Origin: a virus
DNA: 23,256 nucleotides
Reading direction: 5' to 3' (one strand)
IMG/VR virus record: IMGVR_UViG_3300030339_000243
Location: 1 to 23,256 of that record
In this document: piece by piece, positions 3,639 to 8,798 of the stretch
Layout: each line of letters begins with the position of its first letter
Numbering within the stretch: the stretch's first letter is position 1
Notes under the pieces: generated by a model
The model's input: only the letters and a program-made list of their open reading frames with translations
Told to the model about the DNA's origin: nothing
Database searches by the model: none
Program-made: the position numbers and the translations under genes

Positions 3639-4070
3639 ATGGTAGTTCAGGAAGATGACTATCTAGCACATATTGGAATTATGGGTATGCGTTGGGGTCG
3701 TAGTCGAAATCCGCAACATTTAGTTAAAAAAGCAGAAACTCTTAATAAGAAAATAGTTGGAATTGATGTAAAATCCGCTAAAATTAGTCGTAAGACGGCT
3801 ATAAATCAGAGTAGATTAAATGATTTTCAAATGAAAAATCTATCATTTGAACTTACTGATAGAGGGATGGCTAAGGCTAAAAGAACAGTTAAAAGAATAA
3901 AAAGTTTATCCAAAAAGAATGCAAAACTTGAAGTTAGATCTGCTAAATACAAGCAAACGATTTACAAAGATGCTGCTTTTGTTAAGAGATTAGCAAGTAA
4001 AACATCTAGTATAACTGCGAAAGAACTTAGTACTGGAAAAACTATAGTTAATAATGCGTTTGGTGAATAA
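3639..4070 (+). CDS. Second GMxWG-motif basic protein
   Basis: This 143-residue, strongly basic protein is preceded by TAAGGAGG, whose TAA is the terminase stop. Residues 7-20 read DYLAHIGIMGMRWG, the same motif as in the protein at 1332, here followed by RSRN. The rest is a long Lys/Arg/Ser helix with repeated 'VKSAKISRK' and 'VRSAKYKQ' type units (about residues 40-115), likely a coiled coil able to bind nucleic acid or an acidic partner. I recall similar proteins between large terminase and portal genes in clostridial phages, without a known role. Its place suggests a head-associated or scaffold-like accessory. Function unknown. Confidence 0.75.
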   Translation: MVVQEDDYLAHIGIMGMRWGRSRNPQHLVKKAETLNKKIVGIDVKSAKISRKTAINQSRLNDFQMKNLSFELTDRGMAKAKRTVKRIKSLSKKNAKLEVRSAKYKQTIYKDAAFVKRLASKTSSITAKELSTGKTIVNNAFGE

Positions 4071-4087: not shown

Positions 4088-4110
4088 TAAGGAGGTGAGT
4101 CACTATGTAA
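4088..4110 (+). promoter_or_regulatory. Full-length Shine-Dalgarno followed by start-stop ATG-TAA
   Basis: TAAGGAGGTGA (4088-4098) matches the whole anti-Shine-Dalgarno end of 16S rRNA. It is followed at ideal spacing by ATG (4105-4107) and then directly by TAA (4108-4110), so initiation here would give only formyl-methionine. AGTCAC (4098-4103) can pair with GTGACT (4114-4119) to form a small hairpin around the start-stop. The portal gene has its own separate site, AAAAGGAG, before 4147. It may hold ribosomes to protect or tune the portal transcript, or be the relic of a lost small gene. Confidence 0.6.
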
Positions 4111-4146: not shown

Positions 4147-5502
4147 ATGAATTTTAATAATAGACTACAACATGCTTGGAATGCTTTCACTAATAAAGAT
4201 CCAACTAGCTTTCAAGGAAATGGTCCAGGTTATTATGTAAGACCTGATAAAACTAGATTATCTTCTAGTACTAGTCAGTCAATAGTATCTTCCTTGTATA
4301 ATAGAATAGCAATAGATGTAGCGTCTGTTACCATATCTCATGTCAGACTAGATGATAATAAAAGATATTTAGCGGACATTGATTCATCACTTAATGAGGC
4401 ATTAACAATTGAAGCAAATATTGATCAAACAGGAAGAGCTTTAATTCAAGATATAGTGATGTCTATGTTTGATGAAGGTTGTGTTGCAATAGTTCCAGTA
4501 GATACTACATATGATCCAACTGTGACTGATGCGTATGAAATACAAACTTTAAGAGCTGGAAGAATTGTTGAATGGTATCCGGAAATGGTAAAAGTTGAAC
4601 TTTATAATCAAAAAACTGGTTATAAAGAAAACATTACTATTGATAAAAAGTCAGTTGCCATTATCGAAAATCCTTTATATGCAGTTATGAATGAACCTAA
4701 TTCAACCTTAAAACGTTTAATTAGAAAGTTAAATCTATTAGATACGATTGATGAACAAAGTGGATCTGGTAAATTGGATTTAATTATTCAGTTACCATAT
4801 ACAATAAGAACTGAAGCTCGTCGTGTACAAGCAGAAACTCGAAAAAAAGACATAGAGATGCAACTAAGTGGGTCAAAGTATGGTATTGCTTATACTGATG
4901 GAACTGAAAAGATTACTCAGTTAAACAGACCAACCGAGAATAACTTAATGGCTCAGATCACATATCTAACGAGTATGTTATATAACCAGTTAGGATTGAC
5001 TGAGAGTGTTTTTGATGGAACTGCCGATGCAAAGACAATGCTTAATTACTTTAATAGAACTATTGGGCCAATCTTATCTTCAATAACAGATGAAATGATA
5101 CGTAAATTCTTAACCAAAACTGCTCGATCTCAGAAACAGAGTATCATGTACTTCTCAGATCCATTCAGACTTGTTCCTGTTACTGAGTTAGCTAATATAG
5201 CAGACAAACTCACACGTAATGAGATTCTGTCTTCTAATGAGTTCAGAGGAATCATTGGTTATAAACCTTCTGCAGATCCTAAAGCTGATGAGTTACGTAA
5301 TAAGAATGTAACCAATCCTAATGCTCAATTAAATCAAAATGGTACTGCTGATCCAACACAAGTACAGTCAACCGATCAAGCCCCAGTAACAATGGATTCA
5401 TTATCAGCTGTTACTGATGCACAAGGAACAATACTACAAGACTTACTTAATGGTGTAGAAGCAGATATTGATGAAATCTTAGGCGGTGGGAAAAATGGAT
5501 AA
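4147..5502 (+). CDS. Portal protein
   Basis: This 451-residue protein has the layout of the HK97-type portal family, which forms the dodecameric channel at one capsid vertex. The early SIVSSLYNRIAIDVASV segment (about residues 45-62) matches the conserved 'v..c...ia..va' portal helix. The LTSMLYNQLGLTESVFDG region (about 275-295) is the conserved C-terminal stretch before the crown, followed by the DPFRLVP and LTRNEILSSNEFRGIIGYKP regions. The last 70 residues are Gln/Asn/Asp-rich and probably flexible. Length is normal for this family. It lies between a GMxWG protein and the coiled-coil protein upstream of the protease-capsid gene, the usual portal position. The ribosome binding site is GGAG at 4135-4138. 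Confidence 0.93.
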   Translation: MNFNNRLQHAWNAFTNKDPTSFQGNGPGYYVRPDKTRLSSSTSQSIVSSLYNRIAIDVASVTISHVRLDDNKRYLADIDSSLNEALTIEANIDQTGRALIQDIVMSMFDEGCVAIVPVDTTYDPTVTDAYEIQTLRAGRIVEWYPEMVKVELYNQKTGYKENITIDKKSVAIIENPLYAVMNEPNSTLKRLIRKLNLLDTIDEQSGSGKLDLIIQLPYTIRTEARRVQAETRKKDIEMQLSGSKYGIAYTDGTEKITQLNRPTENNLMAQITYLTSMLYNQLGLTESVFDGTADAKTMLNYFNRTIGPILSSITDEMIRKFLTKTARSQKQSIMYFSDPFRLVPVTELANIADKLTRNEILSSNEFRGIIGYKPSADPKADELRNKNVTNPNAQLNQNGTADPTQVQSTDQAPVTMDSLSAVTDAQGTILQDLLNGVEADIDEILGGGKNG

Positions 5503-6301
5503 GATTGGAGAGTTCTTACAGCATTATGTAGAACAACCATATGATCCAGTAAAAGCCCATGAATATTATCTTAAGAATAGAGATCTTAAAGGACGAACAA
5601 CTTCTGGTATGAGTCAACTACAAAAAGAAGCATGGGACTATTCTAAATCTCGTGTAGATTCAGATAAGAAACAATCTGTTGATGCCAATAAGGTTGCTAA
5701 TGACCAAAAGATTGAAGCGTTCCAACAAGAAGCCGATGCAACTCGCGCTAGAATTACTGAAAAACTAAAAGCATTAGCTGAAAAGATTGCAAGTGATTCT
5801 AAGGCTGAACGAACTAGCATAGCAAACAAAGTTAAATCTGACATTGCGAATGTCGAACCAATACCTGATGGGGTAACTGGTGAAGAACGAGCTAGACTCT
5901 TGGAGAAAAGAAAGAAAGAGATAGCCGACATACGTGATACTGCTAGTTCTGATAGAAGTAATGTAACAACTGATGCCACAACATCAAGACAAAATGGTAG
6001 CAACTCTGCTTCTGATGAAAGAGATAAGGCCAGAACTGATTTAAAATCAGTAATTACAAAAGCCAAGGATGACTATGCTAAAGCAAAAGAAACCCTTGAT
6101 TCTAAGTATGAAACTATATATGCTAAAGAATATAGGAACGTACTTAATACCGTTGCAGGAAATGCCCCTAAGGTTAAAACTCCAGCTAAGGCTAAAACTA
6201 AGACTGCAGCTAAGGCCAAAACCCCTAAAGCTGCTAAGACTAGTGACTCAGGAATTATCTATTATACCCCTGCTGAAATGGCAGCGAATAAAAAATCTTA
6301 A
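5495..6301 (+). CDS. Coiled-coil head protein with histone H1-like tail
   Basis: The ATG at 5495 gives 268 residues and overlaps the portal end by 8 bases; an in-frame GTG at 5486 is less likely. Residues 1-40 contain a YDPVKAHEYYLKNRDLKGR segment that I recall from proteins next to portal genes in clostridial phages. Residues 45-215 are charged helices rich in Lys, Asp, Ala and Ser, a likely long coiled coil. Residues 225-247 are a Lys/Ala/Pro/Thr repeat of the type KTPAKAKTK and KAKTPKAAK, much like bacterial and eukaryotic H1-type tails, followed by a short GIIYYTPAEM end. Position between portal and protease-capsid suggests a scaffold or internal head protein, possibly DNA-binding through the basic tail. 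No enzyme motif is visible. Confidence 0.7.
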   Translation: MDKIGEFLQHYVEQPYDPVKAHEYYLKNRDLKGRTTSGMSQLQKEAWDYSKSRVDSDKKQSVDANKVANDQKIEAFQQEADATRARITEKLKALAEKIASDSKAERTSIANKVKSDIANVEPIPDGVTGEERARLLEKRKKEIADIRDTASSDRSNVTTDATTSRQNGSNSASDERDKARTDLKSVITKAKDDYAKAKETLDSKYETIYAKEYRNVLNTVAGNAPKVKTPAKAKTKTAAKAKTPKAAKTSDSGIIYYTPAEMAANKKS

Positions 6302-6329
6302 CTAGTTAATAATGAAGGAGGAAATTAAA

Positions 6330-8138
6330 ATGGCAAATAAAAAGTTTGACTTTAGTGGATATGCCACTAAGAATGATGTACCTTGCACAGATGGACGAGT
6401 TATTCGTAAAGATGCATTTTTAGAAAATAATGGGACAATAGTACCATTGGTTTGGCAGCATATACATGACAACCCTACTAATATATTAGGGCATGCTCTT
6501 CTTGAAAATAGAGAAGATGGTGTATATTGTTATTGCTCATTCAATGATACTGAAGCTGGTAAAAATACCAAAATGGCAGTTCAACATGGGGACCTTACTT
6601 CTTTATCAATCTATGCAAATAAATTAAAGCAACAAGGAGCTAGTGTATTGCATGGTGCTATAAGAGAAGTAAGTCTAGTAATGGCTGGAGCAAATCCTGA
6701 AGCATTTATTGATAATATTAGTATCCAACATGGAGATTCTGTAGAACCAATAGCAGATGAAGTTATCATATATTCTGGTGATTTCCTTGACCCAACAGAA
6801 ATAGAACATTCAGATTCCATATTAGATGAAGAGGAAATAGAACACTCAGAAACTAAAACTGTTCCAGAAGTAACTGTACCAGAGGCTGAGAAAACAGTAC
6901 AAGATGTATTTGATACTCTTAATGATGAACAGAAAAATGTAGTTTATGCTATGATTGCTGATGCTTTAGAAGAGACTCCTACACCTGAAACTACTCCAAA
7001 AACAGAACCAGCTAAAACAGAACCAATAAAAACTAATGACGGCAAGAAAGTTGTCGTACATTCTGAAGGAGGAAAAATAATGAAAAACAACGTATTTGAC
7101 AAAGCTACAGAAAACAAGGATGAAAAGGTGACTCTTAGCCATTCAGAGGTAAATGCAATATTTACTGATGCTAAAAAGTCTGGTAGTTTAAAAGAATCAT
7201 TTCTTGCTCATGCAGTAACTTATGGTGTAGAGAATATAGATTTCTTATTCCCAGATGCAAGGGTTGTTAATGGTGTACCTGAAGTAATTAAGAGAGATGA
7301 TGTTTGGGTAGAAGCAGTTTTAGCAGCTTCAAATCATACTCCTTTTAGCAGAATCAAATCAACAGCAGTAGATCTTACAGCTGATGAAGCAAGAGCTAAA
7401 GGTTATATCAAAGGTGGTTTAAAGAAAGATGAAGTTATTAAACTTCTTAAAAGAACAACCTCTCCACAAACTATCTACAAGAAACAGAAGCTTGACAGAG
7501 ATGATATTGTAGATATTGTAGATTTAGATGTTGTTGTTTGGCTAAAGGCTGAGATGAGAACAATGCTAAATGAAGAAATTGCAAGAGCAGTATTAGTTGG
7601 TGATGGTAGATCAGAAGCTGATGCAGATAAGATTAATACTGATAATATCAGACCTATTTATCTTGATGACGTTTTATATGCTCCTCATGTACTTGTTAGT
7701 GGTGAGCCTGATGAAATGGTTGATGATATATTAAAGGCTAAAATTCAGTATAAGGGCTCAGGTAATCCTATGTTCTATACAAATCAAGCAAGCCTTATTG
7801 AAATGTTGCTTGTAAGAGACACAACTGGTAGAAAGATTTACTCAAGCGTAGCTGAACTTTGTCTTTCTCTTGGAGTATCTGGAGTTGTAGAAGTTCCAGT
7901 TATGGAAGGTGTATCTCGTATGGGTACAGAAACAACACCTCTTCAACATGACCTTGTTGGTATAATTGTTAATCTTAAAGATTATACAATTGGTGCTGAT
8001 AAAGGTGGAGCAATCAATATGTTCGATGATTTCGATATTGACTACAATCAACAGAAATACTTAATCGAAACTAGATGCTCTGGTGCTTTAACAAAACCTT
8101 ACTCTGCTATAGTTGTTGAGAAACTTCATACTGTTTAA
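6330..8138 (+). CDS. Fused prohead protease-major capsid protein
   Basis: Start ATG 6330 is chosen because AAGGAGG (6315-6321) lies before it; an upstream in-frame ATG at 6312 would contain the site inside the gene. The 602-residue product has an N-terminal HK97-type (S78) prohead protease, about residues 1-135. Its likely triad is His44 (VWQH), Ser93 (LTSLSIYA) and Glu113 (REVSLVMAGANP). An acidic Glu/Thr/Pro linker (about 136-250) holds several HS(E/D) motifs. From about residue 251 the HK97-fold capsid protein follows, with ARAKGYIKGG, KKQKLDRDDIVDIVD, VLVGDGR and the conserved MFDDFDIDYNQQKYLIETR end. The protease would cut itself off and trim the shell during maturation. An internal start at 7080 may supply free capsid protein. 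Confidence 0.93.
   Translation: MANKKFDFSGYATKNDVPCTDGRVIRKDAFLENNGTIVPLVWQHIHDNPTNILGHALLENREDGVYCYCSFNDTEAGKNTKMAVQHGDLTSLSIYANKLKQQGASVLHGAIREVSLVMAGANPEAFIDNISIQHGDSVEPIADEVIIYSGDFLDPTEIEHSDSILDEEEIEHSETKTVPEVTVPEAEKTVQDVFDTLNDEQKNVVYAMIADALEETPTPETTPKTEPAKTEPIKTNDGKKVVVHSEGGKIMKNNVFDKATENKDEKVTLSHSEVNAIFTDAKKSGSLKESFLAHAVTYGVENIDFLFPDARVVNGVPEVIKRDDVWVEAVLAASNHTPFSRIKSTAVDLTADEARAKGYIKGGLKKDEVIKLLKRTTSPQTIYKKQKLDRDDIVDIVDLDVVVWLKAEMRTMLNEEIARAVLVGDGRSEADADKINTDNIRPIYLDDVLYAPHVLVSGEPDEMVDDILKAKIQYKGSGNPMFYTNQASLIEMLLVRDTTGRKIYSSVAELCLSLGVSGVVEVPVMEGVSRMGTETTPLQHDLVGIIVNLKDYTIGADKGGAINMFDDFDIDYNQQKYLIETRCSGALTKPYSAIVVEKLHTV
7066..7082 (+). promoter_or_regulatory. Internal ribosome binding site and in-frame start for free capsid protein
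   Basis: AAGGAGG (7066-7072) stands seven bases before ATG 7080, in the same frame as the protease-capsid gene (Met251). The site is as good as those that start separate genes here. Initiation would give a 352-residue protein (7080-8138) that begins MKNNVFDK and holds the whole capsid domain. This would let the phage make many capsid subunits per protease fusion, like nested scaffold genes in lambda-type heads. That it is used is inference. Confidence 0.65.
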
Positions 8139-8782: not shown

Positions 8783-8798
8783 TAAGGAGGAGTGAATT

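Follow-up and report, generated by a model that had tools for sequence, protein, structure and literature searches.

We conclude, with a probability of about 0.92, that one phage gene makes two head proteins by means of a nested start. The gene is located at positions 6330–8138 (plus strand, as are all of its parts described below) of the window, i.e., the whole stretch of 23,256 nucleotides that was analyzed (positions 1–23,256 of the IMG/VR virus record IMGVR_UViG_3300030339_000243). Translated from its own start it encodes a protease-capsid fusion of 602 aa, and a nested in-frame start at 7080 would yield a free capsid protein precursor of 352 aa. It is very probable that the nested start is genuine, because homologues of the gene keep both the start codon and the ribosome binding site (RBS) at the DNA level. 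Fused genes of this kind pose an unexplained stoichiometry problem, namely one protease for each shell subunit. The conserved nested start would be a concrete and, judged from the sequences compared here, plausible answer to this problem across phages of Bacillota and Actinomycetota.

The fused gene and its homologues

In a profile search, the 602-aa product was matched by PHROG 3270 over residues 4–598 (E 1e-218). This end-to-end match identifies 6330–8138 as a protease-capsid fusion of the type found in phage 1706, with a head maturation protease followed by the major capsid domain in a single ORF. The gene is preceded by its own RBS (AAGGAGG, 6315–6321). Its protease domain (residues 1–135, 6330–6734) is matched at residues 7–128 by the Pfam family PF04586 (Peptidase_S78) with 27.1 bits, compared to a curated cut-off of 21. 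His44, Ser93, and Ser115 are invariant alignment columns in 58 homologues and may include the catalytic His and Ser. In an AlphaFold2 model of the full fusion, the protease and capsid domains were predicted with confidence, whereas residues 136–270 were mostly disordered with the exception of a helical element at residues 190–214. This conserved element (6897–6971) is located in the linker between the two domains (6735–7079). Met251, the first residue of the nested product, sits in the predicted disordered region just ahead of two helices.

The family contains gp10 of Lactococcus phage 1706 as well as actinophage genes that carry the annotation "major capsid and protease fusion". It was found in 244 records of the phage collection and in at least 592 stretches of IMG/VR. 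One ORF spans protease and capsid in 353 of 359 loci. The remaining six comprise five contig-edge fragments (L195, L199, and L354 are among the contig-edge cases) and one remote, unfused relative. Three loci considered as split relatives with only the capsid half (L193, L197, and L200) were rejected as such, as the full fused ORF is present in each, and no split family member was found among the 359 loci. Each of eight complete phage genomes contained exactly one capsid match, and therefore no other capsid gene was found in them that could relieve the fusion. A scan using D_HF5_2C as query gave no matches. The helical element of the linker (profile positions ~174–224) occurs in several tandem copies in Arthrobacter phage Qui (L095, 2492–4924), and four further actinophage loci (L083, L087, L091, and L093) may hold two copies of it.

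The internal Shine-Dalgarno sequence and start codon in the window

The sequence-only reading had placed a Shine-Dalgarno (SD) sequence and an in-frame ATG inside the fused gene, followed by a nested product of 352 residues, and these coordinates proved exact. The sequence AAGGAGG at 7066–7072 is followed by ATG at 7080–7082, which is codon 251 counted from the start of the fused gene at 6330 (7080 − 6330 = 750 nucleotides, or 250 codons), and the nested ORF (7080–8138) comprises 352 codons with its stop at 8136–8138. The same reading had judged the internal site to be as strong as real gene starts. Consistent with this judgment, the 12-mer TGAAGGAGGAAA occurs in identical form at the internal site (7064–7075) and ahead of the fused gene's own start (6313–6324), and the computed anti-SD pairing energy is −11.7 kcal/mol for each RBS. 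The pattern AGGAGG-N4-10-ATG was found ten times in the window compared to 1.07 times expected from shuffled sequences, and its occurrence at 7067 is the only one within a long gene. Seven of the other nine sites are located ahead of listed ORFs, and the one at 8785 precedes an ORF of 38 aa. The remaining site, AGGAGG at 4090–4107 with ATG at 4105, opens no ORF of ≥20 aa and is located 42 nucleotides before the portal start. The fused gene has 15 other in-frame start codons, each with a weaker SD sequence than the internal site. Synonymous recoding of the encoded peptide gave an equal or better SD sequence in 32% of the cases (p = 0.32 for the window gene alone). Thus, the window by itself does not prove a nested start, because the peptide often gives such an SD sequence by chance. 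Upstream of the internal start, only weak promoter consensus matches were detected, which were not clearly above those in shuffled sequences. No terminators were found in this search, and Rfam had no match anywhere in the window.

Conservation of the start codon and ribosome binding site at the DNA level

We anchored 346 fused homologues on a conserved N-x-F motif, 244 of which remained after dereplication. Excluded from the 346 were nine loci that lack a clear N-x-F anchor; most of these carry an inserted linker or have a Met within the motif. The anchored homologues originate, among others, from phages of Lactococcus, Faecalibacterium, Clostridia, Arthrobacter, Gordonia, Streptomyces, and Rhodococcus. 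The sequence-only reading had proposed to examine in homologues whether the internal RBS and Met251 are kept in the DNA, and had named their absence from homologues as a refutation. All 346 anchored homologues have ATG, GTG, or TTG at 1–8 codons ahead of the anchor and an SD-like site upstream, and this DNA-level conservation supports the earlier proposal of a nested start that yields free capsid protein. One apparent exception, the CTC codon in Microbacterium phage DizzyRudy (L090), was rejected because the position had been mis-anchored; a GGAAGG...ATG arrangement was found further on in this gene.

This degree of conservation has to be weighed against three readings without a nested product. 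According to the first, the fusion is the only product, so that every shell subunit begins with a protease, and the internal signal would once have belonged to a separate capsid gene and survive as a decayed relic. The signal indeed lies at the position expected for the start of a separate capsid gene, and annotators list one CDS. A relic would decay across homologues with ~50% identity, yet start codon and SD sequence are kept in all 346, and hence we regard this reading as highly improbable.

The second reading attributes the conservation to the protein: the block of acidic EGG/EGD followed by M-K-x-N-V-F-D would be kept, for example, for its role as a hinge or as a protease site, and Glu-Gly codons would give rise to the SD-like DNA as a by-product. 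The N-x-F motif is invariant in the protein, and an SD sequence often results from the peptide alone. The codons argue strongly against this explanation. Among the 244 dereplicated homologues the nested start is ATG in 210, GTG in 32, and TTG in 2. Wherever Val replaces Met it is encoded by GTG (32 of 32 dereplicated cases; joint P ~10^-26.6 given the codon usage of each gene), even in genes where GTG accounts for only about 1 in 50 Val codons, and Leu is encoded by TTG in every case. In contrast, eleven other Met-rich columns of the family, which served as controls, showed no enrichment of GTG or TTG (for example, GTG accounted for 0 of 42 and 4 of 31 Val codons).

The RBS is likewise kept as DNA. 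In low-GC genes, the SD sequence was better than the synonymous null in 94.5% (Wilcoxon p = 3e-15). In GC-rich genes, the simple SD-energy null ran the opposite way, with a weaker SD sequence than the synonymous null in two thirds, and a codon-specific test for Glu and Gly was applied to these genes after the SD-energy null. The Glu-Gly pair before the nested start used GAA in 108 of 110 cases (35 expected, z = 16) and GGA in 82 of 110 (16 expected), far from the usage of these genes. The choice of GAA-GGA in place of GAG-GGN weakens the internal SD sequence in the GC-rich homologues, as if a moderate strength were selected. Across the family, SD-like sequences are encoded by varied peptides (EGG, KGE, KES, KED, EED, and QEE), mostly in two codon phases. 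Where the start shifts relative to the protein anchor the SD sequence moves along with it, so that the mean spacing between them stays at ~4–7.5 nucleotides. Local mRNA structure was weaker at the nested start than elsewhere in the same genes in 88% of 120 genes (mean z +0.8). On these codon data we consider conservation of the protein refuted as a full account, and its probability as a competing explanation to be just as small as that of the relic.

According to the third reading, the internal SD sequence acts on elongating ribosomes, by pausing for co-translational folding or by frameshifting, and not on initiation. SD-like sequences within genes have known effects on elongation and frameshifting. 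Such a role leaves the strict use of ATG, GTG, or TTG at normal SD spacing unexplained, and the capsid frame simply continues through the site. We therefore give this reading even less credence than the other two and retain the nested start as the explanation of the conserved signal.

Fold of the nested product and the mature N-terminus

The nested product was proposed to be the shell protein itself, and fold comparisons agree with this assignment. The 352-aa product has an HK97 fold, with 1ohg as the best Foldseek match (E 3e-12). VIA-align gave a Z of 16.8 against 1ohg (259 residues aligned, rmsd 6.4) and of 17.5 against the GTA capsid. Sequence searches of the PDB with the capsid part, as a single sequence and as a profile, found no relative; only the fold comparison succeeded.

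The sequence-only reading had also suggested that the mature N-terminus could result from initiation at Met251 instead of cleavage. This would imply that the nested product enters the virion without further processing, and a free N-terminus at Met251 is possible. Our results do not favor this suggestion. The mature N-terminus of HK97 (residue 104) aligns with nested residues ~39–44 (VIA-align on the model). Nested residues 1–48 are predicted to consist of disorder and two helices (residues 21–34 and 37–48), with residues 1–14 mostly disordered. In addition, motifs of the type LxH[GASD] have a density of 2.8 per 100 aa in the segment between the nested start and the capsid core, compared to 0.07 in the core itself, and are often found directly ahead of a GIxNIDxLFPD block. 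An uncleaved N-terminus thus appears unlikely. Based on the LxH[GASD] motifs and the alignment with HK97 residue 104, cleavage ~44 residues past the nested start probably generates the mature end of the capsid protein. In the window gene, the candidate site is between His44 and Ala45 of the nested product (LAH/A, 7209–7214), just before YGVENIDFLFPDA. Nested residues 1–44 (7080–7211) would then form a short delta-like N-terminal region that is probably removed at maturation, and 7212–8135 would encode the mature shell protein if LAH/A is cut. Under this scheme, the nested start would set the N-terminus of the precursor rather than that of the mature shell protein.

The motif LxH[GASD] recurs in the linker (6735–7079), in the adjacent 7080–7214, and in homologues, at a density ~40 times higher than in the capsid core, and we regard it from its distribution as a candidate for the motif that the S78 protease recognizes for cleavage. 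Two small related proteins, encoded at 1332–1739 and 3639–4070, flank the terminase and carry an N-terminal LAHxGxxGMxWG motif (DUF7211), whose first residues form an LxH sequence similar to the candidate cleavage motif.

Proposed synthesis of two head proteins from one gene

We propose that translation from 6330 yields the protease-linker-capsid fusion, and that a further initiation event on this mRNA, at the SD sequence at 7066 and the ATG at 7080, would yield the capsid protein alone. The two products would co-assemble through their identical capsid domains, and the fusion, as a fraction of the subunits, would therefore carry the protease into the procapsid. Cleavage of the linker and of the short N-terminal region by the protease, with LxH[GAS] motifs as the probable sites, would then convert the fusion and the free capsid protein into identical mature shell protein.

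The strengths of the internal RBS and that of the fused gene are similar on average across the family and equal in the window gene, which is compatible with much free capsid protein, although conservation of codons and starts cannot report amounts of product. The internal RBS of five actinophages that were analyzed in detail is GGAAGG with −6 to −8 kcal/mol, mostly weaker than the RBS of the fused gene. Since the internal SD sequence is mostly weaker in GC-rich actinophages, the fusion could be as abundant there as the nested product or more so, and the ratio of fusion to free capsid protein may differ between lineages.

Comparison with known systems and other fusions

Fusions of the major capsid protein and the protease have been described in Arthrobacter phage clusters AM and AU (PMC5513430) and in Microbacterium phage cluster EL (PMC7302621), in accounts whose sections on the fusion make no mention of an internal start. 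The AM/AU fusions (Mudcat, Circum, and Gordon) and the 1706-type fusions belong to the same family and matched end to end, and one CDS is annotated in the regions of this family that were viewed. Hence, the protease-capsid fusion as such was already known, whereas the nested start is apparently without report in the open-access literature searched. A nested start would predict a missing CDS in many phage annotations, given the 244 phage records that carry the fusion, and would alter the assignment of capsid N-termini and scaffold-like regions in structural work.

In phage lambda, the protease fusion gene C/Nu3 contains an internal in-frame start, and its C-terminal product co-assembles and helps to deliver the protease. 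This nested product serves as the scaffold, and lambda encodes its capsid protein E in a separate gene. The genes studied here share with C/Nu3 a conserved in-frame internal start and RBS within a protease fusion gene, but differ in that the nested product is the shell protein and not a scaffold. They would thus extend the lambda arrangement to the shell protein itself. On account of the HK97 shell fold of the nested product, we do not file the window gene as a C/Nu3 member, although it would work like one. In HK97, the protease (gp4) and the capsid protein (gp5) are encoded by separate genes. Common to both systems are an S78-type protease, an HK97-fold capsid protein, and an N-terminal region that is apparently removed on maturation. 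In contrast to HK97, protease and capsid are fused here, the capsid protein would be re-initiated inside the fusion, and the N-terminal region comprises ~44 aa in the nested product compared to ~103 in HK97.

Rhodococcus phage RRH1, Gordonia phage GMA5, and phages Jeanie and Schiebs (L362, L365, L366, and L367) also have a protease fused to the capsid protein, but belong to a different sequence family. All four have an in-frame ATG with an SD-like site at the boundary of protease/linker and capsid, which in GMA5 reads CAGGAGGACACCACA followed by ATG. In a comparison of seven fusion genes from small-genome actinophages, the boundary site was the strongest combination of SD sequence and start inside the gene in GMA5 and Schiebs, tied for the strongest in Jeanie, and weaker in the Arthrobacter examples Toulouse, Whytu, and Corgi. 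The boundary sites of the RRH1/GMA5/Jeanie/Schiebs family thus represent a possible case of convergence. A broader and rather speculative idea, toward which we lean less than away from it, is that internal capsid re-initiation is a general and obligatory rule of protease-capsid fusions that arose independently in unrelated fusion families, with RBS strength setting the protease dose of each capsid.

Between the portal gene and the fusion, the window contains a Lys/Ala-rich gene with a GTG start (5486–6301; PHROG 11413, function unknown). In Microbacterium phage DizzyRudy, the gene in the corresponding position carries the note scaffolding protein.
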